From positions 62,001 to 126,000 of the forward strand of contig NZ_WKLH01000003.1 in NCBI RefSeq assembly GCF_010882175.1: a stretch of 64,000 nt of DNA, written 5' to 3'. The notes beneath the pieces were generated by a model. It was given only the letters and a program-made list of their open reading frames with translations. It made no database searches and had not been told where the DNA came from. A program made the translations under genes and the position numbers. Positions 11,397 to 33,624 of the stretch are shown here, one piece after another (positions within the stretch are counted from its first letter, which is position 1; each line of letters opens with the position of its first letter). The stretch is from Mangrovibacterium lignilyticum. GTDB lineage: Bacteria; Bacteroidota; Bacteroidia; Bacteroidales; Prolixibacteraceae.

Positions 11397-13856
11397 ATGA
11401 AAAGAAAAGTCACCAGATATTCACGAACTACCGGTAAAAAGAAACCGAAATATATTGCGAGAAGTCAAAACAAAACCAACAAGATTTGGCTAATAGTCAC
11501 ATTGCTTCTCGCCCCTTTTATGGCCATGAGCCAGCAAGGGAGCGTTCATGGGCGGATTTACGATCTAAACAGCAACCAAAGTCTGCCTTTCTCCAACATT
11601 ATCATTTCCGGAACAACTATTGGCACAACAAGCTCAGAAGACGGAACTTTCGAAATATCGGGCTTGCAACCGGGTTTTATTCGAATTGAAGTTTCGCTTA
11701 TTGGGTACAAAAATGCAATCTCTTCTGAACTGGAAATCAGCAATGCCAAAACAGCCCATGTTGAAATTGGCATGGAACGAACCAACACCGAATTAAATGA
11801 AATAACCGTTTCGGCATCGCCATACAGAACCACTGAAGAAAGCCCGGTTTCGCTAAAAACGATCAGTATTTCGGAAATCGAGAACAGTCCGGGTGCCAAT
11901 CGCGATATTTCCAAGGTTATCCAATCATTTGCCGGAGTGCAATCGACTCCTTCCTTTCGAAACGACATCATCATTCGAGGTGGTGGACCGGCCGAGAGCC
12001 GATTCTTTCTCGATGGCGTCGAAGTTCCCAACATCAACCACTTTGCCACACAAGGTGCATCGGGTGGTCCGGTTGGGATTATTAACGCCGACTTGCTGCG
12101 TGAAGTTGAATATTACTCCGGAGCTTTCCCGGCTAACAGGGGAAACGCGCTCAGCGGAGTTTTTGAGTTCTCGCTGGTTGATGGCAACAACGACAAATTC
12201 AGGGGCCAAGCATCGGTCGGTGCCTCCGAAGTTAGCGCGACCATCGACGGCCCAATTGGAGAAAAAACCAGCTATATTTTTTCAGCACGGCGATCCTATT
12301 TACAGTTACTTTTCGGACTATTGGATATGCCCTTCCTGCCGACCTTTAACGATGTTCAGTTTAAAGTAAAAACCCGAATTGACCGTAAAAACGAGATTTC
12401 AATCATCGGTCTGGGAGCCTTTGATATTACGACCCTGAACACAGATATTGAAAATCCGGACGAACAGCAGAAATACATTTTAGCATCCATCCCAACCAAC
12501 CGACAGTGGAGCTATACTATTGGGGCCGTTTACAAACGTTATCACGAAAATGGCTATCAGACACTCGTTTTCAGCCGCAATCATTTGAATAATGAAGCTG
12601 AAAAATACCTGGACAACGACGAAAGCTCTGAAAGCAACAAAACGCTGGACTACCATTCACAGGAAGCAGAAAACAAGATTCGCTATGAAAATTCGATTCG
12701 CTCGGGACAGACAAAAATAAATTTTGGTGCCAATATCGATTTTGTACATTACACCAACCAGACGTTACAAACCCGCTATTATGACGACGGTCCGCTTCAG
12801 GTAGATTACGATACGAAACTGGATTTCATCAAATGGGGACTCTTTGCCCAAGCCAGCCAAACATTTCTGAATGATCGATTAAGCCTGAGTTTGGGTTTGC
12901 GGCTTGATGCGGACAATTACTCAAGCGACATGAAATCACCATTCGATCAGCTTTCGCCGCGACTTTCGGCTTCGTGGAAACTCGATTCCCGATGGAGCAT
13001 CAACTTTAACACCGGTCGGTATTACCAGCTCCCACCCTACACGGCAATGGGCTACCAGGAAAACAACATCTACCTGAACAAAAACAATGGCCTAAAATAC
13101 ATTCAGGCTGACCACTACATCGCCGGACTTTCGTTCCAACCCAAAAGCAACCTTTTTCTGAGTCTCGAAGGATTTTGGAAGAAATACAGCGACTACCCAT
13201 TTTCGGTGAACGACTCCATCAGCCTGGCAAATCTGGGTGCTGATTTTGGCGTAATCGGCAACGAAGAAGTCCGTTCAATATCCTGGGGACGGGCCTACGG
13301 AGCAGAACTACAAAGTCGGTATTCGCTGCCTGGCAAGTTTAGTTTCAACCTGTCGTACACCTACGTACGCAGCGAATTTAAGGATAAAAATGGGCAACTC
13401 ATTCCATCAAGCTGGGACAGCCGACATGTGCTTGTCGTAACCTCAACCAAAAAACTGAAACGAAACTGGCAGATTGGAGCACGTTGGCGCTTTGTGGGAG
13501 GACTACCCTACACGCCATACGACATGGACCGCTCAAGCCTCGTGGAAGCCTGGAATGCCAACAATGGCCCCTACCTGGACACCAATCAATGGAATACCCG
13601 GCGGTTCAAAGCTTTTCATCAACTCGACCTTCGTATCGACAAAGCTTACTACCTCAAAAAAATGACCGCAAAGTTCTACATCGACTTCCAAAATTTCTAC
13701 AGTTTTAAAAATGAAAACCAGGATATTTTAGTTCGTGAAGAAGATGCTAACGGTCAGTTTATCACAACCGATAACGGAACCCGCTATCAATTGAAACGGA
13801 TCAAAGACGAATCCGGCACAGTTTTACCGACAATTGGAGTCATCCTTCAGTTCTAA
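11397..13856 (+). CDS. TonB-dependent receptor with carboxypeptidase-like N-terminal domain
   Basis: An 819-residue outer-membrane receptor. Order: a 28-residue strongly basic N-region, a hydrophobic core (about 29-44, IWLIVTLLLAPFMAMS), a carboxypeptidase-regulatory-like beta-sandwich (about 48-130), a TonB plug (about 140-260, with IIIRGGGPAESRFFLDGVEV), and a barrel ending GVILQF. There is no alternative Met between residues 1 and 42, so the long basic leader is real unless another codon starts translation. It lacks a SusD partner and SusC-specific features and resembles receptors for small ligands or siderophore-like compounds. Ligand unknown. It is followed by lplA behind a separate promoter. 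Confidence 0.92.
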   Translation: MKRKVTRYSRTTGKKKPKYIARSQNKTNKIWLIVTLLLAPFMAMSQQGSVHGRIYDLNSNQSLPFSNIIISGTTIGTTSSEDGTFEISGLQPGFIRIEVSLIGYKNAISSELEISNAKTAHVEIGMERTNTELNEITVSASPYRTTEESPVSLKTISISEIENSPGANRDISKVIQSFAGVQSTPSFRNDIIIRGGGPAESRFFLDGVEVPNINHFATQGASGGPVGIINADLLREVEYYSGAFPANRGNALSGVFEFSLVDGNNDKFRGQASVGASEVSATIDGPIGEKTSYIFSARRSYLQLLFGLLDMPFLPTFNDVQFKVKTRIDRKNEISIIGLGAFDITTLNTDIENPDEQQKYILASIPTNRQWSYTIGAVYKRYHENGYQTLVFSRNHLNNEAEKYLDNDESSESNKTLDYHSQEAENKIRYENSIRSGQTKINFGANIDFVHYTNQTLQTRYYDDGPLQVDYDTKLDFIKWGLFAQASQTFLNDRLSLSLGLRLDADNYSSDMKSPFDQLSPRLSASWKLDSRWSINFNTGRYYQLPPYTAMGYQENNIYLNKNNGLKYIQADHYIAGLSFQPKSNLFLSLEGFWKKYSDYPFSVNDSISLANLGADFGVIGNEEVRSISWGRAYGAELQSRYSLPGKFSFNLSYTYVRSEFKDKNGQLIPSSWDSRHVLVVTSTKKLKRNWQIGARWRFVGGLPYTPYDMDRSSLVEAWNANNGPYLDTNQWNTRRFKAFHQLDLRIDKAYYLKKMTAKFYIDFQNFYSFKNENQDILVREEDANGQFITTDNGTRYQLKRIKDESGTVLPTIGVILQF

Positions 13857-15000: not shown

Positions 15001-17337
15001 TTATTTCACATCCAACTCTATTGATTTGGACGCGACGCGACCCTGATTATCTATAGCCAAAACCTGCACAACAAAGGTTCCTTTAGTTTTACTTGCGGGA
15101 AGTTGCTGATTAACCAGCTCGTCGACACCCATTGCCGGCTCCCAAAAGAGCGTTAGGGATTGATTATCGTCCATACTCACGATAGTTTCGGTAAAGTCAC
15201 GCGAAATGCGGTTTCCTCCCTCATATTGCTTGATTGGCTCCTCCTCGGCCTCATCCACCCATTCTCCTCTTTTCGTTTTAATATCAATCAGACCAACTGA
15301 ATTCAAACCCGTATATTGCTGAATATCGATTGGACGGGTAGAAATATCTATCGATTCCACATCGTGGGGTGAAATAGACGCCAACACTGAAGCACTTGTT
15401 CCCATTTTCTGTCCATCGATGACGATCAACGCGCCATCCTGTGCAATCAATGAGTTGTTTCCTCCCGGGAAAATAATCTTATCTCCGTCCATCGTGAAAG
15501 GCTTGATCATCTCAATCGCATCCAATACGGACGAGCCTGAGCTCAAGAATTGTTTGTATGAGTTTCCCTGTGCAGCGATTGTCCGCTTGGGTTTTACCTT
15601 TTGAAATAATGTTGGATTTTCGGTAAAAAATTCGACTGTAAATTCCGGTTTGCGATCAAAAACATGCTGATTCAGGAAACTTTCAACCTGTTTCGGCAAG
15701 TCCTCTTCCAATCGGACCCGACTGATGCCCTCTGCTTGTTTAACGGTTTTCTGCGATTGCTGAATACTTTTCCAGTCACTATTGCGAAACTGATTACCAA
15801 TGAGCAAATAGTTGATTGATGACTCGCTCAATTTCCCACTTCGGACAAGCTGTTTGACGCTTGAAATCGGACTCTCCAACCAGCCATTAACCATCAGCTG
15901 ACTTTCAATTGAGGGTGCATCCAGTGATAACAATGCCTTCGGGCAAACACTGATCGTTGCTACTCCCGCCAGCGTCGATTCATTTTCATCCAACAATCCG
16001 ATCTTTAAACCTTCAGCTGTATTTCGCTCAATCGGATTCTGCGCCAACACTGCATCAATCGCCAAATCCCCTTCTTTTTCGACATAAATTAACCGATCGG
16101 CAAGCGGCTTCAGCTGTTGATCAAAAATCATTAGTTGACAAATTCCATGAGAGAATCCGTCTTTGGGAACCTTCAGACTCAGCCCACCATCAACTGTCAA
16201 CTCGGCTCCCCAAATCATCGTTCCACCTCTAAAGGCAGCAAAAATCAAGTCTTTGGAGGACATTCCAACCAAATTCACCGTGCTGTATATAAATCCTTCG
16301 TCCATCCGCCCTACTGCCAATGAAACACCTTCAGCCTTATATTCAGGTAGGTCGAACACCTGCCCTTTTCCGGCCCCTTCCGTAACTTTTAGTTGATACG
16401 TTTTCCCAACTTTCGCTGTCAACGGAAAAATACCTAAGCCCGGAGCCAGGGTATTAACTTGCATGATCTGATCTTCGGAAGTTTTTTCCTGCAAAGCAGC
16501 CTTAAGGGAGACAGCTTGCCCCAAGGTATTTGTTGCCCGGAAAGCGATATTTTGTCTTATCCCGGCAATAAAGTTGCCTCCTTCAGCAGAAAACTGCAGA
16601 CTAATTTTCTCACTTTCAATATGAAACATCGATGAATAAACCTCAGCTCTTCCATCCAATAAAGTCAAAGTCAACGGCTGGTCGAATTGCCGATCAGGAA
16701 CATCAATATTTAGCCTGACAAGACCGTTTTCATCGGCTTTTACTTTGCCGTCAATAATAAGCTCGCTGCCGTTCATCAACTGGTAGTTCACTTTCCCCTC
16801 AAAAGCCTTTCCGTCCATCTCGGAAACCACAAAAAGTAGTTCATTCAGTCTACCGGGAACCAGTGTTTTCACGTTCTCTTCAGTCTTAACCAATAAGCTG
16901 TTTGAATTGAATTGATCGACATAAATCAGCTTCATAAACACCTCATTGGGGAATATTGTACCTCCGCTGTAGGCTGCCAGCACATACCGACCGGGGTCGA
17001 TGTCCTTGGGCAAATCAAAATCACCGCGACACAGACCTCCAACCATTTTATACTTATCTTCATTAATCGGCTCTCCGGCCTCGTCGTAAACGACCACAAC
17101 CAAGTTGTCACTAACGGTTCCTAAACCATTTAAAGCTGGGTTACGAGCAAAACCGGTGAACCAGACGATGTCGCCGGCACGATATAAATCACGATCGGTT
17201 TGCACAAAAATGTTTTCTGAAGGATATTGTTTGAAATGATTATTCAGCATCTTGTGGATCATCTCAAAGGAATCTTGATCCTGCGAAAAGCAGAACAAAG
17301 TCAACGAACAAAAAAAGACGGTTAGCAGTTGTTTCAT
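15001..17337 (-). CDS. exported MG2/bait-type protein with C-terminal TonB-plug-like domain
   Basis: A 778-residue exported protein. It has a signal peptide (about 1-19, TLFCFSQ). An N-terminal macroglobulin MG2-like domain includes the family phrase FVQTDRDLYRAGDIVWFTGF (residues about 45-65). Further beta-sandwich domains follow. At about 615-715 there is a stretch resembling a TonB-receptor plug (VLDAIEMIKPF, ALIVIDGQKMG, VESIDISTRPIDIQQYTG, VGLIDIKTKRG), with no barrel after it. It is the last gene of the sigma/FecR/STN operon; its start lies 12 nt after the preceding stop. Function is unknown. The plug module without a barrel suggests a periplasmic partner for an outer-membrane channel encoded elsewhere. 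Confidence 0.8.
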   Translation of the reverse strand: MKQLLTVFFCSLTLFCFSQDQDSFEMIHKMLNNHFKQYPSENIFVQTDRDLYRAGDIVWFTGFARNPALNGLGTVSDNLVVVVYDEAGEPINEDKYKMVGGLCRGDFDLPKDIDPGRYVLAAYSGGTIFPNEVFMKLIYVDQFNSNSLLVKTEENVKTLVPGRLNELLFVVSEMDGKAFEGKVNYQLMNGSELIIDGKVKADENGLVRLNIDVPDRQFDQPLTLTLLDGRAEVYSSMFHIESEKISLQFSAEGGNFIAGIRQNIAFRATNTLGQAVSLKAALQEKTSEDQIMQVNTLAPGLGIFPLTAKVGKTYQLKVTEGAGKGQVFDLPEYKAEGVSLAVGRMDEGFIYSTVNLVGMSSKDLIFAAFRGGTMIWGAELTVDGGLSLKVPKDGFSHGICQLMIFDQQLKPLADRLIYVEKEGDLAIDAVLAQNPIERNTAEGLKIGLLDENESTLAGVATISVCPKALLSLDAPSIESQLMVNGWLESPISSVKQLVRSGKLSESSINYLLIGNQFRNSDWKSIQQSQKTVKQAEGISRVRLEEDLPKQVESFLNQHVFDRKPEFTVEFFTENPTLFQKVKPKRTIAAQGNSYKQFLSSGSSVLDAIEMIKPFTMDGDKIIFPGGNNSLIAQDGALIVIDGQKMGTSASVLASISPHDVESIDISTRPIDIQQYTGLNSVGLIDIKTKRGEWVDEAEEEPIKQYEGGNRISRDFTETIVSMDDNQSLTLFWEPAMGVDELVNQQLPASKTKGTFVVQVLAIDNQGRVASKSIELDVK

Positions 17338-17348
17338 GGCTATATGAG

Positions 17349-18878
17349 TTAGTTGGGTTGGTTGTTTTTCCCTACAACGGTCAGCGATTTAATTGCTTTA
17401 CGCAAATCGTCGGTAGGCGCTATAATGTTGTAATTCCCCCAGAAATCGGGATCATAATCGGTAATCATCTCGGTAAAAATATCAGAAGCATTCAGCTGCT
17501 CCTCTTTTGGGAAACGCCGCAAACGAGTGGGTTTATGGCTTGTCACCAGTAAATCGGAAACACTGTGAAAAACAGAATTGACCTGATCGCTCCGGCTGCG
17601 CACGCGAAAACTGACCGATGACTGAGCCGTGTTTAGATACCACAAGCCTTCGTTTTGCCGGTAACTGACCTGGTAATCCAGATTTAGCGCCCGAACATTA
17701 AAACCTTTCGGCTTTTTCCGGATCAGCTGTTCCCTGGCAATCCGGATACCACTTTTCGACAAACTGAACTCAGCGTGAACCAAAGCGAAGGTTTCCTGAT
17801 CGATAAACAGCTTGCCCGAATAGGTCAGAAAATCGTTCTTTCCCAAGGGCGAGAAATAAATTACGTAGGCCGGTCTCCCCAAATAGTCAATCATACTCCC
17901 GGCTTCATACTTGTAATTCGACCGATAATCTTCATCTAAGAAAGAATCCATCGTTTTGACCACATCCAGCTGGGTGGTGTAATACGGACCTCCCTGCATC
18001 TTGAAATCGACCCACTGGAACGTTTCAACATCCGGACTTTTACGCCCTTTCAAAAAACGAATTTTATCGTCGCGAAAAGGCATGCTGTACGAGGCTTTCA
18101 ACAATTGAATGACCGCTTCGGAAACATTAATATAAACGTCATCCTGAGTCAGCACTTCCCGATAAAAAGCAGTCATCAACCTACTTCCATCCGGGTAATT
18201 TTCACCGATATGACCGACCATTTGCTCCAACACCCAAAGCGGCTTTATGGCCCGGACTTTAATCTCTTTCAAGCGAATATTGACGGGTTGAAGCTCCATT
18301 AAAAGGTCTTCGTCTTTTAGGCTATCCAATTGAATCAGTTCCCTGCGGTAGCCCAAACAGGAAAACACCAAATCCTCGTGCTGGTACTTAGGCGGAATTT
18401 TCAGTTCAAACCGACCTTCTGTATTTGATATCGTTCCAAATGCCTTATTCAAAATTGAAATACTAGCATAAGGAATCGCCTCATTGAACTCCTGATCGCG
18501 GATTACACCGCGCACAATTCGGTAACCATCCAATAATGATGCTGATTCCTGGTTTGCTTCGCGCATTCGGATGATAAGTTGATTTCCGAGCTCCTGAAAA
18601 GTGAACTCACGGCCCAGCAAATCAGTCAATACAAATTCCAATGGCTTATCAACATAAGAAACCGTTACCGGAAGCTCTGTATCCAACAAAGTAGGATCGT
18701 ACGAAAAGTTAATTCCGGCAAGCTTTGAAATCCGATCGAGCACCCGATCCAAATGCTCATTTTCAACGTTCAGACTAATGCTTTTCGACAAAAAAACAGC
18801 TTCCTGATCTTGAGCCGCAGCGCTAATAGCCACATACCAAAAGATCAAGAAGCTGAATATTTGCCGGTATTTCCGCAT
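17349..18878 (-). CDS. STN-domain protein with carboxypeptidase-like regulatory domain
   Basis: A 509-residue periplasmic or surface protein. A signal peptide ends near residue 22 (AISAAAQ). A secretin/TonB N-terminal short (STN) domain covers about 30-108 (ISLNVENEHLDRVLDRISKL, SYDPTLLD, YVDKPLEFVLTDLLG). A CarboxypepD_reg-like beta-sandwich covers about 118-200 (AIPYASISILNKAFGTISNT). The C-terminal 300 residues are the conserved partner of such domains in Bacteroidota exported proteins and have no catalytic motif that I recognise. Its ATG overlaps the stop of the preceding gene in a TAATG arrangement, so translation is coupled. In this operon the STN domain would normally contact a FecR C-terminus. 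Confidence 0.85.
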   Translation of the reverse strand: MRKYRQIFSFLIFWYVAISAAAQDQEAVFLSKSISLNVENEHLDRVLDRISKLAGINFSYDPTLLDTELPVTVSYVDKPLEFVLTDLLGREFTFQELGNQLIIRMREANQESASLLDGYRIVRGVIRDQEFNEAIPYASISILNKAFGTISNTEGRFELKIPPKYQHEDLVFSCLGYRRELIQLDSLKDEDLLMELQPVNIRLKEIKVRAIKPLWVLEQMVGHIGENYPDGSRLMTAFYREVLTQDDVYINVSEAVIQLLKASYSMPFRDDKIRFLKGRKSPDVETFQWVDFKMQGGPYYTTQLDVVKTMDSFLDEDYRSNYKYEAGSMIDYLGRPAYVIYFSPLGKNDFLTYSGKLFIDQETFALVHAEFSLSKSGIRIAREQLIRKKPKGFNVRALNLDYQVSYRQNEGLWYLNTAQSSVSFRVRSRSDQVNSVFHSVSDLLVTSHKPTRLRRFPKEEQLNASDIFTEMITDYDPDFWGNYNIIAPTDDLRKAIKSLTVVGKNNQPN

Positions 18879-20446
18879 TAAAAGACTTTCTCCAGATAAA
18901 AGGTTGTTTCAATTTCCTGCCCCTCCCGAAGAACGGTCATATTTATTTTCCGGTCTTCCTTACTCATCAGGATCAAATTTATATCATTTAAAGATAAACT
19001 TTTATGATGAGAACGATTTACCGATAAAATTTGATCATTTTCTTTCAAACCGGCACGTTCACCTGGTGAACCAGCCCGCACCATATCAATTTGGAAGATA
19101 GGCATTCCCGGAAACGGATTGGAAATTTCAAGCCCGCTCATGTTGTAATTGAAATCTTCATTGACTTTGCTCGTTGGTCTCAGCTTAATTTGGCTGCCCG
19201 GATAGTCGATAGTAACATAAAAACGACGAAGAATCTCAGCACCAAGCGTTCCGTTTCGATCATCGGTTATAATCTGATCAACTAATTCCGCCTCGGGGAA
19301 TGACACAATGGGCTCGTCCAAAATCAGTGGTCCAACCCAAATACCGCCGATACGGCCTTTTTTCCCATATAAGTCGCCGTTCAATCCCCGCCCCAAGAAT
19401 GCTTCAATATTATTAACCGGTAACCCAATGCGGTTATCCGATTTTGTTGACAACCAAATGGCATCGCTGGCCCCCGTATCAACCAGCAACTTAACAGGTA
19501 CATATTCGTTTTTATCGGTCACAATGGTCGTCCGAACGTAGGGCTTATTGTGCTCAAAGTGAATTGGCATAACAATGTCGCGGTTAATCACCCGGTCCCT
19601 GTAATATTTCGGTTTAATCAGCGTCAACTTATGATTATCGTAATCAATCTCAACAACAAAATCTTTAAACAAATCGAATCCAATCAGTCCGTGAACAGGC
19701 AGTCCCAAAATCTGTGAAATCTGGAAATCATCATCAATCACCATATGCACTTCCTGGTTGTACGAAACCAGCCCGCTACCGATCTTCATCGTATTATTTC
19801 CTGAACGATAAGCAGTCATGCTCTCACCTTCTCCCAAGCCGGAAATAGAAACCGGCTGCATATAATTCAGACTCAATTTATCAACAAAAGGCAATTCCGT
19901 AATAATCGGAATCCGAACACCAGTATCCAAAATAAAGTTCAGCGTATCAGAGTCATTAATGATAACCGGAATGATGATGAGATTACTGGCTGTTTTGAAA
20001 TCAATCGTCAGACTTTTATCCTTTTTATTGATGAATTCGAAGCGATTTTTACCCGGCGTGTAGCGAATTTTCCGTTCATAGTCAAGCGATTCCTTGAGCG
20101 GTACATAATCGCGCACCACCAGAATATTATCCTCTATTTCGAAAATGAGGTAATAGTCCTTCATCAACTTTTCCAGCACATACCGAATCGGCACATTCGA
20201 AATGTTCAAACTCACTTTTTTGCCTTCAACCAGTTTCGAATTGTACGAGTAATCCAGGTTGAAATACTCACAGATCCGCTGAATGACATTCGAAAGCGAT
20301 TCCTCTTCAGCGACAATACTGATATTCTGATCCAGTATCGATTTTCTAGGTTTGTCATCTTGGGCTGAAGCTGTCAACGAAGCGAACATCAACAGGATGA
20401 TCGCCAGCACAGCAGCCAATCTCCCACTCCATCTTTTCGTTTTCAT
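18878..20446 (-). CDS. STN-domain two-lobed aspartic protease with PDZ domain
   Basis: A 522-residue exported protein with domains in this order. Signal peptide about 1-29 (ASLTASAQ). STN domain about 38-112 (ISIVAEEESLSNVIQRICEY, VSLNISNVPIRYVLEKL). First retropepsin-like lobe with FILDTGVRIP (Asp174 in DTG). Second lobe with KLLVDTGASDAIWLS (Asp323 in DTG). C-terminal PDZ about 435-515 (FQIDMVRAGSPGERAGLKEN). Having both DTG aspartates in one chain is the arrangement of a self-sufficient pepsin-type active site. It follows fecR by 20 nt and is translationally coupled to the next gene. The combination suggests regulated periplasmic proteolysis linked to the sigma/FecR pair; the substrate is inference only. 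Confidence 0.87.
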   Translation of the reverse strand: MKTKRWSGRLAAVLAIILLMFASLTASAQDDKPRKSILDQNISIVAEEESLSNVIQRICEYFNLDYSYNSKLVEGKKVSLNISNVPIRYVLEKLMKDYYLIFEIEDNILVVRDYVPLKESLDYERKIRYTPGKNRFEFINKKDKSLTIDFKTASNLIIIPVIINDSDTLNFILDTGVRIPIITELPFVDKLSLNYMQPVSISGLGEGESMTAYRSGNNTMKIGSGLVSYNQEVHMVIDDDFQISQILGLPVHGLIGFDLFKDFVVEIDYDNHKLTLIKPKYYRDRVINRDIVMPIHFEHNKPYVRTTIVTDKNEYVPVKLLVDTGASDAIWLSTKSDNRIGLPVNNIEAFLGRGLNGDLYGKKGRIGGIWVGPLILDEPIVSFPEAELVDQIITDDRNGTLGAEILRRFYVTIDYPGSQIKLRPTSKVNEDFNYNMSGLEISNPFPGMPIFQIDMVRAGSPGERAGLKENDQILSVNRSHHKSLSLNDINLILMSKEDRKINMTVLREGQEIETTFYLEKVF

Positions 20447-20466
20447 AGCTTATTGGTTTTCAGTTT

Positions 20467-21468
20467 TTAATTTTTCTGTAAGAGATAATTGCTTTCGTCG
20501 ATTTGATCTAATTCCAGCTTGTGAGTCATCGCAATGACCTCTAAAATAAACCGGACAGGCCGGTCATCAAATCGGGCAGTCAGCAACAGCTTTTCCATTT
20601 CCGGATCAGCTGTCGCGATCTCCACCCTGTAAACTTTGTTCAATTGTTCTATGACGTCTTTGAGGCTTGTTTTATTAAAAATGAATGAATGTGTTTTCCA
20701 GGCCAGGTAATTCAGATCATCATTCTGAATTCGTTGAAATTGCGGCGAATCATCATTCAAAACACCTTTTTCGCCGGGAGTTAGAATCACATCATCATCT
20801 GTCGATGCTATTTCGCTGGATGAAACCTGAACACGTCCGGTTTTTACCACCACAGAAACTTCACCCGTTTGCGGGTAGGCATTCACATTAAATGAAGTTC
20901 CCAAAACCTGAATATCGGCTTTCCCCGCATGAATAATAAACGGCTGATCCGGATTGGGCAGAACTTCAAAAAAGCCTTCTCCATCCAACTCGACTTCCCG
21001 GTACTTTCCAGTAAAATGATCGGGATAAGAAAGATGACTACCGTAATTCAAAGTAACCATCGAGCCATCAGCCAATTCGATTTTGGTCAGTCCGTAATTG
21101 TCAACCGCTGCAACTTCTTCCTGTGCGTTCAGCCAACCAGCCTCACTGGCCCAATAAGCAACTGAGCCAACCAGCAAGCCGACCAGAATGACGGCAGCGA
21201 TCCTTCTCCAAACCGAACTTAGTCTGAAAACTTTAGTTTCGGAATTTTGATGAATAGCGGCTTCAACCTTCGGTAAATCCTGTTCTGGTGAAAATCTTTT
21301 CTGCTTAAAATGAAGGTCGATTTGACGAGCAGTTTCCCGGATATCATTCAATTCATCCGGCTCCCAATCCGTCAATTCAAGATTGGACTTTTCGGCAGTC
21401 CGTTCATCAAACAACTGTTTGGCCAAGGCTGCCCATTTTTTGTTGATATCGTTCTTATCTGTTCCCAT
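20467..21468 (-). CDS. FecR-family anti-sigma factor
   Basis: Inner-membrane anti-sigma/sigma-activator protein of 333 residues. The cytoplasmic N-terminus (1-90) is followed by one transmembrane segment at about 92-111 (VILVGLLVGSVAYWA). A periplasmic FecR domain covers about 125-225 (ELADGSMVTLNYGSHLSYP, GEGFFEV, VLGTSFNVNAYP). A C-terminal STN-like DUF4974 domain covers about 255-333 (FIFNKTSLKDVIEQLNKVYRVEI). It sits 44 nt downstream of its sigma gene. The signal would normally come from the STN domain of a TonB receptor. Here the only local STN domains are in the two genes downstream. Confidence 0.95.
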   Translation of the reverse strand: MGTDKNDINKKWAALAKQLFDERTAEKSNLELTDWEPDELNDIRETARQIDLHFKQKRFSPEQDLPKVEAAIHQNSETKVFRLSSVWRRIAAVILVGLLVGSVAYWASEAGWLNAQEEVAAVDNYGLTKIELADGSMVTLNYGSHLSYPDHFTGKYREVELDGEGFFEVLPNPDQPFIIHAGKADIQVLGTSFNVNAYPQTGEVSVVVKTGRVQVSSSEIASTDDDVILTPGEKGVLNDDSPQFQRIQNDDLNYLAWKTHSFIFNKTSLKDVIEQLNKVYRVEIATADPEMEKLLLTARFDDRPVRFILEVIAMTHKLELDQIDESNYLLQKN

Positions 21469-21512
21469 TTGCAGTTATGACAGGGAACCACCGGCAACAC
21501 CCCTAAGGAAAA

Positions 21513-22091
21513 TCAAAAATATTTCCGAAAAAGGCTGATCCCAATCAACAAATGGCGATACTCTTTGAGATCCTCTCGCAAATGTTTCAATGCCAATCCC
21601 ATTTGCGTTTCAACCGTTTTCACGGATATCCCCAGGCGATCCGCAATTTCGCGGTACGTTAGTTCATCCTCGCGGCTAAGCTTGAATATTTCTTTGCGTT
21701 TGGGTGGAAGGGATTCGATACTCGCTTCAATTTTTTGATGTAAGTCAACTTCAACAAAATACTGATCAACTTGACTATCCTTCTCGTCAGACGCCAATTT
21801 GTCCAGGTATTTTTGCTCAACCTTTTTATGATTGATCCAGTTTATCAACTGGTTTTTTACGGCCCGAAACAGATAGCTTTTCACGGAAGTGTGTACCCAA
21901 ATTTGCTGTCGTTTTTCCCAAAGTTGAACAAAAACCTCCTGTACCAATTCCCTGGTTTTCTGATCATCGTCCAAAAGTCCATAAGCGAACAGGCAAAGCC
22001 CCGAATAGTAACGATTAAAAAGCTCGCTAAAAGCTTTTTCATCGTCTTGTTTCAATTTTGAAAATAATTCGAGATCGGTTGCTGCCTTCAT
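21513..22091 (-). CDS. ECF RNA polymerase sigma factor (Bacteroidota FecI-like)
   Basis: A 192-residue extracytoplasmic-function sigma factor. Region 2 is at about 20-90 (FNRYYSGLCLFAYGLLDDDQ, VQEVFVQLWEKRQQIW, YLFRAVKNQLINWINH). Region 4 is at about 120-180 (LPPKRKEIFKLSREDELTYR, EIADRLGISVKTVETQMG). The short variable linker and the motif order match the FecI-like family that pairs with FecR. It is the first gene of the five-gene operon running to 15001. The upstream minus-strand sequence contains near matches to TAnnTTTG (for example CATCTTTG at 22120-22127), none exact. Confidence 0.95.
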   Translation of the reverse strand: MKAATDLELFSKLKQDDEKAFSELFNRYYSGLCLFAYGLLDDDQKTRELVQEVFVQLWEKRQQIWVHTSVKSYLFRAVKNQLINWINHKKVEQKYLDKLASDEKDSQVDQYFVEVDLHQKIEASIESLPPKRKEIFKLSREDELTYREIADRLGISVKTVETQMGLALKHLREDLKEYRHLLIGISLFRKYF

Positions 22092-22217: not shown

Positions 22218-23600
22218 ATGAAAGAACAAAAATTGCCTGTTCGGTTTAGCCGGCCATTCTGGGTGGCCAACTCAGTTGAACTGCTTGAGCGTTTAGCCTA
22301 CTACGCTATTTTTATCGTTATCACCATTTACCTGTCTAATGTTTGGGGCTTTTCCGATATCGAAGCTGGCTGGATCAGCGGTGTTTTCTCGGCTACTTTG
22401 TACTTGTTACCCACCTTTGTTGGCGCATATGCCGATAAAATCGGATTTAGAAGCGCGATTATCATTGCCTTCAGTCTATTGACAATTGGTTATGCCGGAC
22501 TCGGAATCTTACCCACAATGCTGCAAAGTGCCGGACTAGTGAGCTATGGCATGGAGACAAGCTTCAACGGGCTCAACGAAAGCATTCTGCGGTGGTCAAT
22601 TGTGCCGGTCATGGTTTTAATCGTTATTGGTGGCTCGTTTATTAAATCAGTCATTTCAGGTACCGTGGCTCGCGAAACAACCTCCGAAACCAGGGCCCGC
22701 GGTTATGCCATTTTCTATATGATGGTCAACATCGGGGCATTCATTGGTAAAACCGTCGTCGATCCGCTGCGAAAAAGTTTGGGCGACCAAGGACTCGTTT
22801 ATCTCAACTTCTTTTCGGCAACCATGACTGCCTTGGCTCTGATTGCTGTTTTCTTTCTTTATAAATCTGCTAAAACAGAAGGACAAGGCAAATCATTTCG
22901 CGAAATTGGTACCGGCCTGGTCAAAGTCGTCAGTAATGTGAAACTACTGGTTCTGATTCTAATCATCAGTGGTTTTTGGATGATCCAAAGTCAGATGTAC
23001 GCCACCATGCCCAAGTACGTCATCCGCATGATTGGCCAGGAAGCTTCACCCGGCTGGTATGCCAACGTGAACCCGCTGATCGTCTTCCTGATGGTCAATA
23101 TTGTCACATCGTTTATGAAGAAGTATACTGCCCTTCGATCGATGACAATTGGGATGCTGATCATTCCTTTATCGGCTCTCATCATGTCTTTCGGCACCCT
23201 GATCGGCAAAGACTTCATCCTCGGATTGCACCCGGTTGCTTTTATGATGATTGTTGGAATTGCTTCCCAGGCCATTGCCGAATGTTTTATTTCACCCCGT
23301 TACCTGGAATATTTTTCATTGCAATCACCTAAGGGTGAAGAAGGCCTTTATCTTGGATTTAGCCATTTACATTCGTTCTTCTCGTACTTATTTGCCTTTG
23401 GACTGGGAGGATACCTGCTGGACAAATATTGTCCCGATCCCAAACTGTTTGAGTCGGCAGAAGCTTACCGACAAGCAACAGCTCACGCCCATTACATTTG
23501 GTTTGTGTTTGTCGGAATCGGTATGATTTCAGCTCTGGCTCTGCTTGTTTATGGTTATTTGATAAAGAAAAAAGAACCTGTTCAGCCCGCAAATTCATGA
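22218..23600 (+). CDS. MFS/POT-type peptide transporter
   Basis: A 460-residue inner-membrane protein with about 12 hydrophobic segments. The first transmembrane helix carries ELLERLAYYAIF, matching the ExxERxxYY proton-coupling motif of the POT (proton-dependent oligopeptide transporter) family. The segment GTVARETTSETRARGYAIFYMMVNIGAFIG, given here only by position (about 153-182), is the second POT-like landmark. The likely role is uptake of di- or tripeptides with protons. It has its own promoter and no linked peptidase, so specificity is open. Confidence 0.85.
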   Translation: MKEQKLPVRFSRPFWVANSVELLERLAYYAIFIVITIYLSNVWGFSDIEAGWISGVFSATLYLLPTFVGAYADKIGFRSAIIIAFSLLTIGYAGLGILPTMLQSAGLVSYGMETSFNGLNESILRWSIVPVMVLIVIGGSFIKSVISGTVARETTSETRARGYAIFYMMVNIGAFIGKTVVDPLRKSLGDQGLVYLNFFSATMTALALIAVFFLYKSAKTEGQGKSFREIGTGLVKVVSNVKLLVLILIISGFWMIQSQMYATMPKYVIRMIGQEASPGWYANVNPLIVFLMVNIVTSFMKKYTALRSMTIGMLIIPLSALIMSFGTLIGKDFILGLHPVAFMMIVGIASQAIAECFISPRYLEYFSLQSPKGEEGLYLGFSHLHSFFSYLFAFGLGGYLLDKYCPDPKLFESAEAYRQATAHAHYIWFVFVGIGMISALALLVYGYLIKKKEPVQPANS

Positions 23601-24980: not shown

Positions 24981-26615
24981 ATGAAGAAACGGATTAGCAT
25001 CTACTTACCTTTATTGATAGCAGTATCAGTCATTGTGGGAATATTTTTGGGCAACCATCTAACCAGTCAGTCCAGCCACGGTGGATTCCAGAACTTTGCT
25101 GCACCCAAACCCGATAAACTGAGTACCATTGTCGACTTAATCGCCAATGCTTATGTCGACTCGGTTGGTACCGACCAAATGGTAGAAGATGCCATTCCCG
25201 TTCTGCTCAAAAATCTAGATCCCCATTCAACCTACATTCCTGCTCGTGATATGCAGGAGGTTAACGAAGAAATGCAAGGGAATTTCGGCGGCATTGGCGT
25301 TCAATTTTCCATCCACAACGATACCGTTCAGGTTGTTGATGTTATTTCCGGAGGCCCTTCATCTAAGTTGGGGATCCAACCGGGCGACCGCATTGTCATA
25401 GTAAATGACTCTCTTATCGCCGGTAATGGTGTAAAAAATGAAACCGTCTTAAACCTGCTTCGCGGAGAAAAAGGCACACAGGTTAATGTGGGAATCAAGC
25501 GAAAAGGAATCAAAGATTTAATGCGTTACGACATTACCCGTGGCGACATTCCAATCATCAGTGTTGATGTTAGCTACATGATTAATGATAGTACCGGCTA
25601 TGTTAAAGTGAGCCGTTTTGCTGAGAAGACCGTCGCCGAATTTATGGAGGCTGTCAGTAAAATAACCGGTGAAGGTGCCAAGCAAATCATTGTCGATTTA
25701 CGTGGAAACCCCGGAGGATATTTGATGGCAACGGTTAAGATGGTCAATGAATTTCTGGACGAGGGAGATTTGATTGTTTACACAGAAGGACATTCGCAAG
25801 CACGGAAAACATATTCGGCAACCGGAAAAGCCCATTGGAAAGATAAACGTGTGTTTGTATTGATGGACGAATATTCAGCTTCAGCAAGTGAAATTTTCGC
25901 CGGTGCATTGCAGGATAACGACAAAGGCGTTATCGTTGGACGCCGTTCGTTTGGAAAAGGGTTGGTGCAAGAGCAAATTCCTTTTAACGACGGTTCTGCT
26001 TTGCGACTGACTGTTGCCCGTTACTATACACCAAGTGGACGCTGCATTCAAAAACCTTACAGTGAGGGAACCGATGAATATTATCACGACATCATGAACC
26101 GCGCAGTACACGGTGAATTAGAAGTAGCCGACAGTATTCAGTTTTCTGACACCTTGAAATATGAAACCAAAGGCGGACGAACCGTTTACGGTGGTGGTGG
26201 CATCATGCCCGACTATTTTGTGCCAATGGACACGACTGGTTATTCTGACTATTATTCGAAAATTACCCAGAAAGCACTGGTTTATCATTTCGCTTTCGAT
26301 TACAGCGATAAGCACCGGGTAGAACTCGCTAAACTTTCAACCCCGGAACAATTCGTTCAATATTTGCAAAAAGAAAAAGTGTTGGATCAGTTTATCGCTT
26401 ATGCTGAGGGAGAAGGTGTTAAACGCAGCACTTCAGACTTAAAAATATCTGGCAAAATCATTGAATATCAACTCATGGCATACATCACCCGGAACATTAT
26501 CGGCGATGATGGATTCTACCCGATTATTCAACAAATCGACAAAACATTGCAAAAAGCCATCGAACTTTCGGAGGAAAATCGTTCGCTCACACAACTTTTA
26601 GCTGTAACAAAATAA
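24981..26615 (+). CDS. S41-family C-terminal processing protease
   Basis: A periplasmic serine protease of 544 residues. It has a signal anchor (about 8-27), an N-terminal helical domain, a PDZ domain at about 95-180 (GNFGGIGVQFSIHNDTVQVV, GIQPGDRIVIVND), and an S41 catalytic core. The Ser/Lys dyad is Ser301 in EYSASASEIFAG and Lys326 in RRSFGKGLVQ, 25 residues apart as in Prc. A C-terminal extension of about 150 residues follows the core. It sits directly before the sigma gene (15 nt gap), so it may be co-transcribed with the sigma/anti-sigma unit. Whether it cleaves the anti-sigma factor is speculation. Confidence 0.93.
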   Translation: MKKRISIYLPLLIAVSVIVGIFLGNHLTSQSSHGGFQNFAAPKPDKLSTIVDLIANAYVDSVGTDQMVEDAIPVLLKNLDPHSTYIPARDMQEVNEEMQGNFGGIGVQFSIHNDTVQVVDVISGGPSSKLGIQPGDRIVIVNDSLIAGNGVKNETVLNLLRGEKGTQVNVGIKRKGIKDLMRYDITRGDIPIISVDVSYMINDSTGYVKVSRFAEKTVAEFMEAVSKITGEGAKQIIVDLRGNPGGYLMATVKMVNEFLDEGDLIVYTEGHSQARKTYSATGKAHWKDKRVFVLMDEYSASASEIFAGALQDNDKGVIVGRRSFGKGLVQEQIPFNDGSALRLTVARYYTPSGRCIQKPYSEGTDEYYHDIMNRAVHGELEVADSIQFSDTLKYETKGGRTVYGGGGIMPDYFVPMDTTGYSDYYSKITQKALVYHFAFDYSDKHRVELAKLSTPEQFVQYLQKEKVLDQFIAYAEGEGVKRSTSDLKISGKIIEYQLMAYITRNIIGDDGFYPIIQQIDKTLQKAIELSEENRSLTQLLAVTK

Positions 26616-26630
26616 CATCTCGCTCGTCAT

Positions 26631-27137
26631 ATGGGGAAATGTACAGAAAACCCCATGACCGTTGAAGAGTATAACATTGCCGTGAAGCAGCACGCTGATG
26701 GTGTTTTTCGATTTGTTTTGAAAAATATTCGCGACGAAGAAAAAGCCCGCGATATTGTTCAGGACAGCTTCGAGAAGCTCTGGATTCATCGTAGCAATGT
26801 GTCCGGCGATAAGCTGAAAGCTTACCTCTACTCAACGGCTTACCATCGTTTGATTGACCTGGTAAGAAAAGACCGCCGCCTGAGCCTGATGGACGAAGTT
26901 CGATCGGAAGATGTTCACTTTGAACAGTATTCCGACTTGCATGAAATCCTGAGCAAGGCTATTCTTTTACTTCCAAACGATCAGCGTTCTGTACTGCTTT
27001 TGCGCGACTATGAAGGTTATTCCTACAAAGAAATAGCGGAGATTACAACACTCAACGAATCGCAGGTAAAGGTTTATATTTACCGTGCCCGGGTGTTTTT
27101 GAAGAATTATATTGGGAAAATGGATGTTTTAGTTTGA
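26631..27137 (+). CDS. ECF RNA polymerase sigma factor
   Basis: A 168-residue sigma-70 family protein. Region 2 is at about 20-90 (DEEKARDIVQDSFEKLW, KAYLYSTAYHRLIDLVRKD) and region 4 at about 110-160 (LPNDQRSVLLLRDYEGYSYK, EIAEITTLNESQVKVYIYRA). Translation may begin at 26631 or at the second Met (26655, MTVEEYN), which looks more natural. It differs from the FecI-like factor at 21513. The partner is the membrane protein encoded 3 nt downstream. Confidence 0.93.
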   Translation: MGKCTENPMTVEEYNIAVKQHADGVFRFVLKNIRDEEKARDIVQDSFEKLWIHRSNVSGDKLKAYLYSTAYHRLIDLVRKDRRLSLMDEVRSEDVHFEQYSDLHEILSKAILLLPNDQRSVLLLRDYEGYSYKEIAEITTLNESQVKVYIYRARVFLKNYIGKMDVLV

Positions 27138-27140
27138 AAG

Positions 27141-28175
27141 ATGATGATTAACCGGTCAAATTACGAAAGCTACTTTATTGACTACATCGATGGGAACCTC
27201 CCCAACGATTTGGTGGATGAGTTTTTGGATTTTCTGAAAGGTAATCCCGACCTGGCCGAGGAACTAAAAGCTGTTTCCGGGATTAAACTTCATGCCGAGC
27301 CAGGCATCTTTGCAAACAAAACCAAATTGTACAAAACCGATGACGTTGAAACGGCCGATTTCCAATCCGTAGCTTTCATTGAAGGCGATTTAAATGAGCA
27401 GGAAGAACAGCAATTCCTGGATGACTTAGCAACTGATGACGCAAAACTGAAGGACTTGCAGCTTCTTCAAAAGATAAAGCTTCAGCCCGACCTGGCTATC
27501 CGGTTTCCGGAGAAAGAAAAGATGCTCCACAGACCAAAGCCAATTTACCTGTGGCCCATGCGAATCGCGGCACTTTTACTCTTGTTCTTCTCCGTTTGGG
27601 CTTTGATTCCCAGGAAAAACCAAGTGATTCCGGAAGCTCCAATCGCCCAACAAATTACACCTTCACACGAAACACAAAACGAGGACAGTCAGGAAGTAAC
27701 TGCCAAACCGGAAATTGAAGAACCCGCACAAACTGAGAATATGGCAGTTGCCGATGTGCCGGAAACAAAACCGATCGTCCGCGAAAAACCCAATGCCCTT
27801 CAAACTGATAGCCCGTCGATTGACGACCGAACATTAATTGCCGTGCGTGAGGATATTCCGAATAAAATGCAACCGCTAAACGCCCATTTGGATCTTCAAA
27901 AGGTGGTGGTTTCGGAAGTTTATATTACCACTAGAAATCAATTCCCAAGTCGGGAAACACTGAGCGTCGACGAATTCCTGGCTTACAAACTGATCGATGC
28001 TCCAAAAGGAGAAAGCTTCACCATCAATAACCTGACCAATGCCGGGTTGCGTGCCGCCCAGAACATTTCGAACGACCGATTCGAAGTTGAACGCAACGCA
28101 AAAGGGAAAGTTGAAGAGATCAAATTCGAGAGTCGCTTGATTGCTTTTTCCATTCCTTTCAAAAAAAATCGCTGA
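27141..28175 (+). CDS. membrane anti-sigma-like protein
   Basis: A 344-residue single-pass protein. Its cytoplasmic part holds two similar segments, YIDGNLPNDLVDEFLDFL (about 15-32) and FIEGDLNEQEEQQFLDDL (about 78-95). Each resembles the short helical element of anti-sigma domains, but there are no zinc-binding cysteines. One transmembrane helix lies at about 133-154 (MRIAALLLLFFSVWALIP). A Pro/Glu/Thr-rich linker and a periplasmic tail follow. It starts 3 nt after the sigma stop. By position and layout it is the cognate anti-sigma factor; it is not FecR-like. Function is inferred. Confidence 0.75.
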   Translation: MMINRSNYESYFIDYIDGNLPNDLVDEFLDFLKGNPDLAEELKAVSGIKLHAEPGIFANKTKLYKTDDVETADFQSVAFIEGDLNEQEEQQFLDDLATDDAKLKDLQLLQKIKLQPDLAIRFPEKEKMLHRPKPIYLWPMRIAALLLLFFSVWALIPRKNQVIPEAPIAQQITPSHETQNEDSQEVTAKPEIEEPAQTENMAVADVPETKPIVREKPNALQTDSPSIDDRTLIAVREDIPNKMQPLNAHLDLQKVVVSEVYITTRNQFPSRETLSVDEFLAYKLIDAPKGESFTINNLTNAGLRAAQNISNDRFEVERNAKGKVEEIKFESRLIAFSIPFKKNR

Positions 28176-31072: not shown

Positions 31073-32275
31073 TTAGCTCTTAATCGATCGTACGGGGTAC
31101 CAGGCCGCCACGAAACCAATGGCCAGAACGATCAGCAAGGTAGCCAACACATCGAAAGTCTGCAGCTTTACCGGGTAGGCTGAAATGGCAAATGCACCAC
31201 CTCCGGGCAGTTTTAAGAGCTCGAAACGGGTTTGCGCCCATACCAGGCCGATGCCGGCTAAAACACCAGCCAAAGCGCCTGTAATCGAAATCATCCAACC
31301 CTGGAGCAAAAAGATCCGGCGAACCAGGCTTTGATTAGCCCCCATACTTTCGAAAATGTAGATATCGTCTTTTTTATCGAGAATAATCATGGTCAACGAG
31401 CCCAGCAAGTTGAACGAAGCAATGATCAGAATAAAACTCAGGATCAGAAAACTGGTCCACTTTTCCGATTTCATCACCCGGTACAAAAACTCGTGCTGTT
31501 CGTACCGATCCTGCACTTTGTAGCCACCGCCCAGCAGTTGTTTAACCTGCGACTGAATGTCAGCAACATCAAAGCCGGGCTTCAATTTTAATTCCAACGA
31601 AGTAACACGGCCATCAAGCTCAAAAATCTCGCGGGCAAATTCAATCGGGACCAAAATATATTGGGCATCAATTTCCTGTTGGACCGAAAAAACGCCGGTT
31701 GTAAACAGAAAATCGTGGTTAAAGGCATTCTCAAGTATCAGGCTGTTTTTCGACTCGCGCTTGGGATAATACACATGAATTGGGTTCACGAAATTCAAAC
31801 TCACTCCTAAATCAACAGCCACGCCTTGACCAATTACGGTAAACATGTGGTTATCCTGGTTCAGGGTGAATTGGCCGTCAATCACCATCGTGTCCATGCC
31901 CGAAAAATCAGCGTAATCAGCCTCAACACCCTTCACAATGCCATATTTCTGGCGGTCGTCGTATTGCAACAACGCATTGTCTTCAACCACCTGCATAAAC
32001 GACTCAATGCCTTCAATCGCTTTCAGTTGCCTGATCTCCGGGCTATCCAGCGAAAAGCTCTTTCCTTCGACCACCATAATTTTCAGGTCGGGATCGAAGC
32101 TGGAAAGCATGCCTTGAATAAAATTGTCGATTCCGTTGAACGCAGAAAGCACCACAATTAGCGCAAGGGTACCAACCGCCACACCAACAACCGATAAGGC
32201 CGAAATGAGGTTGATCACATTCACTGATTTCTTAGAAACCAGGTAACGACGCGCTATTTGAAATGCCAGTTTCAA
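31073..32275 (-). CDS. LolC/LolE-type ABC transporter permease
   Basis: A 400-residue inner-membrane FtsX-superfamily permease. It has one N-terminal helix (about 20-45), a large periplasmic MacB-like domain (about 50-265) and three C-terminal helices (about 275-395; FILSFILIIASFNLLGSLTM and IFLLQGWMISITGALAGVLA). The layout fits lipoprotein-releasing permeases, which extract lipoproteins from the inner membrane. The ATPase is not adjacent, as is common in Bacteroidota. It starts directly after the stop of the methyltransferase gene with no spacer (32275/32276), so they are co-transcribed. Confidence 0.88.
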   Translation of the reverse strand: MKLAFQIARRYLVSKKSVNVINLISALSVVGVAVGTLALIVVLSAFNGIDNFIQGMLSSFDPDLKIMVVEGKSFSLDSPEIRQLKAIEGIESFMQVVEDNALLQYDDRQKYGIVKGVEADYADFSGMDTMVIDGQFTLNQDNHMFTVIGQGVAVDLGVSLNFVNPIHVYYPKRESKNSLILENAFNHDFLFTTGVFSVQQEIDAQYILVPIEFAREIFELDGRVTSLELKLKPGFDVADIQSQVKQLLGGGYKVQDRYEQHEFLYRVMKSEKWTSFLILSFILIIASFNLLGSLTMIILDKKDDIYIFESMGANQSLVRRIFLLQGWMISITGALAGVLAGIGLVWAQTRFELLKLPGGGAFAISAYPVKLQTFDVLATLLIVLAIGFVAAWYPVRSIKS

Positions 32276-33094
32276 TTATTTGAAAGCTTTAACGATCAAT
32301 CCGGTGCCGCTGGTGTGTGTTCCTTTCACATCGAAATAGTTCAGCAGGGCTGAAATTGGGAACGCAACAAGGTAATAGAAAGGCAACAGGATGAAAAACA
32401 GCTTGCTCACGCCCAACAGTTGAATGGGGTATTTCATGGAAAGCCGCCAGCTGATTTTACCGGGATTGCCATACGAATAGCGTGCCTCAACCCTCGAGAA
32501 TCCGGCCGATTTCAGTTTCGTTTCAATCTCGCCAATGTTGTAGCCGTCGCGCACGTGTTCGTCGATGAAACCATGCACACCACCTTCTTCATGATCGTGG
32601 TCGTGCGCATCCGATCCCCCCTGATCCGATGGTGTTGAAATGAGCACCACCCCACCCGGCTTCAGCGATTTATAAAAGTTTTTGAAAACCTGAACATCCT
32701 CTTCAATGTGTTCCATTACATCAATCGAAAGAACCAGGTTGAATTGCTCAGCCTGCACAAATTTGGTCAGGTCTGCTTCTTCAAAACGAACCCGGTCAGC
32801 CTGATTAATCTGCTGAAAGAAACGATTGCAATCAGCGATTTGCTCTTCTTTTACGTCAACTGCCAGAATGTTCGATTTCGGGAACAACCGGCTCATGCGG
32901 TAGGTGTATTGCCCGAAACCAGAACCGGCGTCGAGAATAGCGCAATCGGCCGACAATTGAAGGTTCTTCAGTTCCTTGCGGACATGCCAGCTTCGTAACA
33001 ACAACAAATCGAGGAGGCGGTAAAACAGTTTTCTTAGCGCCGGAGTTTGGTTGAACACCTTGCCCAGCGAACGTTTAATCGGATCGTATTGCAT
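32276..33094 (-). CDS. class I SAM-dependent methyltransferase
   Basis: A 272-residue protein with a Rossmann-fold methyltransferase core: motif I CAILDAGSGFGQYTY (about 48-62), an acidic residue ending strand 2 (ILAVDVKEE), and motif IV NLVLSIDVMEHIEEDVQVF. A His/Asp-rich loop (SDAHDHDHEEGG) sits before the C-terminal part, which contains a hydrophobic stretch (LFFILLPFYYLVAFPISALL), so it may be membrane-associated. Substrate unknown. It is co-transcribed with the permease gene and lies downstream of rbfA. Confidence 0.85.
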   Translation of the reverse strand: MQYDPIKRSLGKVFNQTPALRKLFYRLLDLLLLRSWHVRKELKNLQLSADCAILDAGSGFGQYTYRMSRLFPKSNILAVDVKEEQIADCNRFFQQINQADRVRFEEADLTKFVQAEQFNLVLSIDVMEHIEEDVQVFKNFYKSLKPGGVVLISTPSDQGGSDAHDHDHEEGGVHGFIDEHVRDGYNIGEIETKLKSAGFSRVEARYSYGNPGKISWRLSMKYPIQLLGVSKLFFILLPFYYLVAFPISALLNYFDVKGTHTSGTGLIVKAFK

Positions 33095-33100
33095 AATTCA

Positions 33101-33131
33101 GTTTCGAGTTTCAAGTTTCGAGTTCCAGGTT
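33101..33131. repeat. 7-bp tandem repeat (GTTTCRA)
   Basis: Four consecutive heptamers GTTTCGA, GTTTCAA, GTTTCGA, GTTCCAG followed by GTT, between rbfA and the methyltransferase gene. A small dyad TTGCC-TGGC-GGCAA follows directly. Confidence 0.7.
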
Positions 33132-33169
33132 GCCTGGCGGCAACAAAGACTGAAAACTGCGACTAAGTG

Positions 33170-33508: not shown

Positions 33509-33624
33509 TTCCTTGTTAAAATTGTCAGCGCCAAAGTTAATCAAAAATACCGGATGGTCTGATTTGATTTGAATTGAGGCGAAAAATGTCCCACTTGAAA
33601 AGCCAGACGCTATTCCGGCAAATT

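Follow-up and report, generated by a model that had tools for sequence, protein, structure and literature searches.

This study examined a 64,000-nucleotide window of the Mangrovibacterium lignilyticum genome (contig NZ_WKLH01000003.1, positions 62,001 to 126,000), in which a five-gene operon runs on the minus strand from 22091 down to 15001 and encodes an extracytoplasmic-function (ECF) sigma factor, a FecR regulator, and three further proteins, referred to here as gene 3, gene 4, and gene 5 (coordinates are positions in the window). A previous sequence-only reading had described a sigma/FecR operon with an STN-domain aspartic protease and no TonB receptor and had proposed that the receptor was replaced by the protease module. 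Pfam matches and gene coordinates supported the description, but the replacement was not borne out. As judged from sequence comparisons, gene 4, not the protease, is the constant partner of the sigma-FecR pair across the order Bacteroidales, and the protease is a family-level addition to an older sigma-FecR-gene 4 circuit. The explanation we favor, with our confidence evenly balanced, is a receptor-less cell-surface-signaling circuit in which gene 4 would dock FecR through its STN domain and sense an envelope lipid or lipoprotein, with gene 3 acting as an accessory protease; the docking, the ligand, and the substrate are what we infer from the evidence below.

The first two genes form a conventional pair. 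A FecI-type ECF sigma gene adjoins a FecR gene whose 333-residue product carries, according to Pfam, only the FecR and FecR_C domains. FecR_C is the STN-like periplasmic end and, from the papers on PupR and FoxR, would be expected to bind STN partners. The sequence-only reading had placed STN domains on two exported proteins, and this was weak in the window copies of genes 3 and 4 but firm in their relatives. By eye, the products of genes 3, 4, and 5 each appear to begin with a signal peptide that lacks a lipobox.

Gene 4 combines an STN domain, a domain resembling the N-terminal extension of SusC receptors, and a C-terminal LolA/RseB-like fold that had been missed previously. Its STN match fell under the Pfam cut-off (E 4e-4); among 63 relatives, Pfam detected STN in 46 and CarbopepD_reg_2 in all 63, and the STN of one distant relative exceeded the cut-off (46.7 vs 28.4 bits). 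In the predicted model (mean predicted local distance difference test score 85.9), the STN part resembled secretin N0 and receptor signaling domains at Z 7-9, and the middle domain aligned with the SusC extension 9hfj at Z 12.3 (80 residues aligned, root-mean-square deviation 1.7). The C-terminal domain matched LolA3 of Porphyromonas gingivalis (9tp6; Z 10.2, 183 aligned, deviation 4.2), followed by 3bk5 (Z 10.1), LolB (Z 8.7), and MucB (Z 7.8), and Foldseek returned RseB at E 1e-5; Pfam reported LolA_like and DUF5686 in 4 of the 63 relatives each. A TolA/TonB-like fold was absent among the matches listed for the gene 4 model. By its modeled fold, gene 4 thus has the LolA-like domain of an RseB-type sensor or protector, and it is probably the partner of FecR.

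The distribution of gene 4 outside the family supports its central position. Full-length relatives (alignments starting by residue 42 and ending after 479) were present in at least 62 of 291 genomes from other families of the order. We compared 39 loci of these families, drawn from the strongest gene 4 relatives (L185, which is STN-less and lies outside the order, was left out), and the results revealed sigma, FecR, and gene 4 in this order in 35. The exceptions were L174, which is cut by a contig end after FecR, and L170, L206, and L211, which have neither sigma nor FecR. A genus of the home family that has no protease gene still keeps the sigma-FecR-gene 4 order (8 of 8 loci). In the wider taxonomic class, strong gene 4 matches other than SusC N-termini are STN-less and begin at about residue 122. 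In 25 of the 39 loci (e.g., L175-L184, L186, and L207-L210), the strand that carries the circuit also encodes an STN-less gene 4 sibling of about 420-460 residues. This sibling lies directly upstream of the sigma gene in several loci, forms a tandem pair twice, and is present in two copies in L186, L208, and L220; it could be a regulated partner of the circuit.

Within the family, the order sigma-FecR-gene 3-gene 4 was found in all 20 loci of a set containing mostly one locus per genus. A second, named set comprised the best 80 of 534 matches (Mangrovibacterium, Sunxiuqinia, Draconibacterium, Maribellus, Mariniphaga, Tangfeifania, Puteibacter, and other Prolixibacteraceae) and shares some genomes with the first. 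In the named set, 72 of the 75 loci with at least 1900 bases of upstream room have sigma and FecR directly before gene 3, and 74 of the 76 with at least 400 bases of downstream room have gene 4 directly after it; L091, where the upstream sequence is only 2.2 kilobases long, has neither sigma nor FecR within it. The coupling of genes 3 and 4 that had been noted in the window, where the stop codon of gene 3 and the start codon of gene 4 share one base (TAATG), recurred as a one-base overlap in 31 of 76 loci and as a four-base overlap in 4. Gene 3 relatives (E below 1e-60) were found in 107 of 140 family genomes, with weak matches only in 15 more and none in 18. The survey of gene order that the sequence-only reading had called for therefore revealed strong conservation, both in the family and beyond it.

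We then analyzed the TonB receptors of the genome (5.63 Mb, 16 contigs). The gene list and Pfam showed no TonB-dependent transducer (STN, plug, and barrel) in the operon, and the nearest TonB receptor (11397-13856), encoded on the opposite strand on the far side of lplA, gave no STN match in Pfam. Among the 48 STN matches in the genome were gene 3 and a pair within a single frame, which leaves 46 other proteins; their frames of 1070-1245 residues are as long as those of SusC-type receptors. Of these 46, 44 have a FecR domain immediately upstream. Of the 50 FecR genes, the six left over are the window FecR and five beside other plug-bearing receptors (L223 twice, L224, L225, and L226). The window FecR is thus the only one of the 50 without a receptor-type neighbor, where Pfam showed Plug in the four leftover receptors (L223-L226) and the other 44 were assigned by STN and frame size. 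The only receptor-type piece in its operon is the plug-like part of gene 5, which is followed by about 80 residues. Because a whole-length receptor model is blind to small TonB receptors and matched none of three that bear a Pfam Plug, the search was repeated with a plug model, which detected 25 of 26 positive-control loci. In the 39 other-family loci, this model found one STN-less receptor (L173, with a Pfam Plug) and two gene-5-like proteins (L212 and L214).

Gene 3 is, from its sequence and predicted model, a two-lobed clan AA aspartic protease. Two Asp_protease_2 stretches and a PDZ domain exceeded the Pfam cut-offs, and two D-T/S-G motifs occur in one chain. The catalytic positions proposed previously, Asp174 and Asp323, are each conserved in 55 of 56 aligned relatives. 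The model showed a pepsin-like fold over residues of about 140-427, with its best match to 9iy9 (Z 19.2, deviation 3.7, 269 aligned) and then to pepsin-type chains at Z 15-16; a sequence search against solved structures returned PDZ domains only. The entry 9iy9, a pepsin-like "putative endopeptidase" of Bacteroides fragilis, is the closest solved structure (18% identity over the match), and no paper on it was found in the open-licence literature. At its N-terminus, gene 3 matched STN (E 2.3e-4) and FecR_C (E 2.5e-4), both under the Pfam cut-off; at E<=0.01, STN was found in 32 and FecR_C in 47 of 56 relatives. Against the gene 3 STN, the median score was 49.6 bits for the gene 4 STN profile and 29.9 bits for TonB-receptor STN profiles. 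The gene 3 STN therefore scores best with the family gene 4 STN profile, yet receptor STNs reach 48.2 bits there. On receptor STN profiles, the gene 4 STN had a median of 41-42 bits, compared with 4-8 bits for FecR_C.

The relatives of the protease outside the family differ in structure and placement. Such relatives (E<=1e-20) occur in 56 of 291 non-family genomes, and their alignments begin at residue 126 or later, except in G415, where the alignment reads through stops and the open frame encodes 416 residues without STN. None of 16 non-family protease loci is near sigma, FecR, or gene 4. Judging by these comparisons, the protease carries an STN domain only where it is placed in the operon, and its relatives elsewhere are STN-less and unlinked. 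A tree was built by a quick method from sigma, FecR, and gene 4 together (53 rows; outgroup, 8 of 20 receptor systems), and in it the receptor-less circuits fell on one side of a branch with support of 100. Genus g10, which has no gene 3, was nested beside the protease-bearing L050 (support 100), and L171 sat on a long branch of unsure placement. Gain and loss of the protease are not separable from counts alone; the simplest reading of the tree is that the protease was gained once in the family and lost in g10.

These results suggest the following mechanism, for which related systems offer precedents. The STN of the receptor FoxA binds the STN of FoxR and protects FoxR from proteolysis, into which PDZ proteases are drawn, as reported in PMC11637429; the STN contact of PupR and PupB has been described from a crystal structure (PMC7186176); and, according to PMC7400510, MucB, which has a LolA-like domain, shields MucA from AlgW, a PDZ protease, as long as lipid is not bound. 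By analogy, the STN of gene 4 would bind the STN-like end of FecR and shield FecR from proteolysis, as in FoxA-FoxR. Its LolA-like pocket would take up a lipid or lipoprotein that accumulates when the envelope is disturbed, much as MucB/RseB respond to lipid, and the bound ligand would loosen the grip on FecR. FecR would then be cleaved by a site-1 protease and next by an RseP-type protease, and the sigma factor would work; the genome encodes one M50 (RseP-type) protein. In the protease-bearing family, an aspartic protease with a PDZ domain moved in between fecR and gene 4 and gained an STN. Through this STN it may dock on the complex as well and add a further proteolytic activity, with FecR or gene 4 as its most likely substrate. 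That the circuit senses a lipid or lipoprotein is possible, though slightly doubtful, and that FecR specifically is cut by gene 3 is unlikely. In its widest form, the proposal describes a FecR alarm that works without a receptor throughout the order, where an RseB-like lipid sensor is built on receptor signaling domains, the formerly stand-alone protease of the family became a dedicated FecR protease by means of its STN, and two STN proteins of one operon compete for one FecR; we consider this whole rather improbable. The sequence-only reading had suggested the sensing of peptides or envelope damage. An envelope signal is plausible, but no evidence pointed to peptides.

Several observations weigh against the favored circuit or against a role for the protease in it, and some of them speak for a rival explanation, in which the protease would be an output of the circuit or a housekeeping envelope quality-control enzyme, tethered by its STN near the inner membrane and taking no part in sigma switching, so that the circuit proper would be sigma-FecR-gene 4. 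No other protein of the operon is as well conserved as gene 3 (68-73% by domain vs 53% for sigma). Mean pairwise identity over 68 sequences was 71% for its STN and 73 and 70% for its catalytic lobes, whereas FecR_C (46%) and the gene 4 STN (36%) were far below the gene 3 STN. This difference is not expected of an STN that evolves as a pair with FecR_C only. It would be consistent with the gene 3 STN binding a target less variable than FecR_C, or a small conserved surface on FecR_C. The predicted model of gene 3 also has low confidence over its STN. Moreover, 5 of 101 gene 3 sequences depart from the catalytic motif: L102, L110, and L111 lack one catalytic Asp, and L112 and L130 lack the Gly after it. 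The protease and the circuit also occur apart. STN-less protease relatives stand alone elsewhere, L112 and L097 have gene 3 next to rbfA (with an MFS gene on the other side in L097) but lack sigma, FecR, and gene 4, and the g10 loci mentioned above have sigma-FecR-gene 4-gene 5 without gene 3, with FecR split in two frames in L155. Nevertheless, the gain of STN coincides with a place directly behind fecR (72 of 75 loci, vs 0 of 16 elsewhere), and genes 3 and 4 frequently overlap, which argues for a connection with the switch; we regard a bystander protease as somewhat unlikely.

The nature of gene 4 also allows other explanations. It may be a lipid or lipoprotein carrier that the sigma circuit merely regulates together with gene 5, with STN serving only to position the carrier at a membrane complex. 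LolA-type folds are also found in plain carriers, gene 4 has its top fold matches in the carriers LolA and LolB and also matches vitellogenin-type lipid transfer proteins, and the MucB match (Z 7.8) falls under the level that the fold-search tool calls distinctive; the STN-less sibling in 25 of 39 loci is consistent with this explanation as well. However, STN is a known FecR-binding module and is found on the copy behind fecR, not on the sibling, and a mere carrier therefore seems improbable. It is more improbable still that an unlinked STN TonB receptor drives the window FecR and that genes 3 and 4 only modify its signal. The search for such a receptor, proposed in the sequence-only reading, accounted for the 44 STN receptors that have their own FecR and left two SusC-type STN receptors without FecR just upstream (C9:688780, L227; C9:652857, L228). 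A sigma-like gene lies near one of these two (L227), and the receptor-less gene order recurs over the order. The receptor-less sigma-FecR-gene 4 circuit remains the reading that we prefer.

This circuit shares components with several known systems. Similar to FecI/FecR/TonB-transducer signaling (FoxA-FoxR, PupB-PupR, and the SusC type in Bacteroidota), it has an ECF sigma factor, a FecR with FecR_C, and a partner with an N-terminal STN, and gene 4 keeps the SusC order of STN followed by the N-terminal domain. In contrast to these systems, the operon has no plug-barrel receptor, and STN is found on a LolA-like protein and a protease. As described in PMC2729926, VreA of the PUMA3 system of Pseudomonas aeruginosa (VreA-VreI-VreR) is a barrel-less, largely soluble STN protein encoded with a sigma-FecR pair, and genes 3 and 4 are likewise barrel-less exported STN proteins beside sigma and FecR. 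With this precedent, the lack of a receptor is not in itself new. VreA differs, by the same account, in being small and in having a second domain modeled as TolA/TonB-like, where gene 4 has a SusC N-terminal domain and a LolA/RseB-like fold, and the window operon has an STN protease besides. Similar to RseA-RseB-DegS and MucA-MucB-AlgW (the latter as described in PMC7400510), a LolA-fold protein stands by an anti-sigma factor with a PDZ-bearing protease in play; however, the anti-sigma factor here is FecR, not a member of the RseA class, the contact would be made by STN, and the gene 3 protease is aspartic and two-lobed, unlike the trypsin-like serine protease DegS. The EcfO-Reo and Das-Dma systems of Bacteroides are, according to PMC13114119 and PMC12596196, ECF circuits proposed to detect stress at the outer membrane with no nutrient receptor involved (a further source on EcfO-Reo-type circuits is PMC13088901). 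Their anti-sigma factor is described as spanning to the cell surface, whereas the window FecR has an ordinary 333 residues. No paper on this gene arrangement, on an STN with an aspartic protease, or on FecR with STN and LolA in Bacteroidetes was found in the open-licence literature, a coverage that does not extend to the ECF reclassification paper.

Gene 5 appears to be an accessory component. As had been noted previously, it has MG2 and plug-like modules without a barrel. MG2 exceeded the Pfam cut-off (E 1.8e-12), and an hhalign profile comparison with SusC receptors identified the plug part (probability 96%, E 4.2e-9). Pfam Plug was found in none of 27 family members, and the plug model built for this analysis matched gene 5 in many relatives. 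Because the protein ends about 80 residues after the plug-like part, there is no room for a barrel. Gene 5 follows gene 4 in 12 of the 20 family loci and, in the named set, adjoins it in 35 of the 67 loci whose sequence extends far enough; in four loci of genus g3, a gene 5 relative occurs alone. Members of the gene 5 family (e.g., L154-L165, L212, and L214) are MG2 proteins of about 780-930 residues with the plug-like part near the end, and 8 of the 27 matched the alpha-2-macroglobulin bait region, which places a macroglobulin-like protein beside a protease.

Feature coordinates in the window, with the evidence for each assignment
Feature	Position	Strand	Evidence
ECF sigma factor (FecI-like, Bacteroidetes subfamily)	21513..22091	-	TIGR02985 E 2.3e-50; Sigma70_r2 and r4_2 over cut-off
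FecR anti-sigma/sigma regulator	20467..21468	-	FecR PF04773 E 2.6e-14; FecR_C PF16344 E 6.1e-12
FecR_C domain of FecR, residues 262-327	20488..20685	-	Pfam coordinates
Gene 3, predicted exported STN - two-lobed aspartic protease - PDZ protein	18878..20446	-	Pfam, predicted model, relatives
Gene 3 STN domain, residues 36-114	20105..20341	-	Weak Pfam STN/FecR_C matches; STN profile cross-scores
Gene 3 protease lobes, residues 145-427	19166..20014	-	Asp_protease_2 twice; fold; conservation
Gene 3 catalytic Asp174	19925-19927	-	Conservation
Gene 3 catalytic Asp323	19478-19480	-	Conservation
Gene 3 PDZ domain, residues 447-518	18893..19108	-	PDZ_6 and PDZ over cut-off
Gene 4, predicted exported STN - carboxypeptidase-regulatory-like (SusC N-terminal) - LolA/RseB-like protein	17349..18878	-	Pfam, model, relatives
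Gene 4 STN domain, residues 29-108	18555..18794	-	Model: EscC Z 8.8, PupA Z 7.6, FecA Z 7.1
Gene 4 SusC N-terminal-extension-like domain, residues 118-203	18270..18527	-	CarbopepD_reg_2 E 2.4e-12; 9hfj
Gene 4 LolA/LolB/RseB-like domain, residues 211-461	17496..18248	-	Model fold matches
Gene 5, predicted exported MG2 protein, plug-like C-terminal part (about 15253-15462), accessory	15001..17337	-	MG2; hhalign to SusC plug

The surroundings of the operon were also inspected. Many of the stretches upstream of the sigma gene (66 compared, 45 displayed) share an A/T-rich block that is not separable from a housekeeping promoter, and promoter and terminator scans of the locus gave chance-level results. 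An MFS/POT transporter gene (22218-23600) diverges from the sigma gene and has relatives at the same place in 8 of the 20 family loci; the two genes may therefore share a control region. Beyond it lie an S41 peptidase gene with a PDZ domain (24981-26615), a second ECF sigma gene (26631-27137), and a gene (27141-28175) whose 344-residue product has no Pfam match and may be the regulator of that sigma factor. Relatives of the S41 gene are located within several kilobases of the operon in 7 of the 20 family loci. In L038, L039, L040, L042, and L044, rbfA and an FtsX/MacB-type permease gene follow gene 4 (identified by Pfam on the window copies, 31073-33544); a permease of this type beside a LolA-like protein would be of interest if it is of the lipoprotein-releasing (LolC/E) kind. 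Read from protein starts, a dnaK-like gene lies a few kilobases from the circuit in L181 (13729-15642), and in L167-L169 the circuit is near genes for an ABC-2 permease-like protein, its ATPase-like partner, and a dnaJ-like protein.

A receptor-less circuit with a stress-sensor-shaped protein in the place of the receptor suggests a cell-envelope alarm of an unrecognized kind. If this is true, Bacteroidota would accomplish the task of RseA/RseB/DegS with a different set of envelope-stress components, namely FecR as the anti-sigma factor, STN-STN contacts for docking, and a LolA-like pocket as the sensor. The circuit would, in addition, show that receptor signaling domains can be detached and reused, and FecR would gain a dedicated protease candidate for site-1 cleavage. 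The relatives that have the circuit only, the protease only, or both with changed catalytic motifs in the protease would then represent natural experiments on this arrangement.

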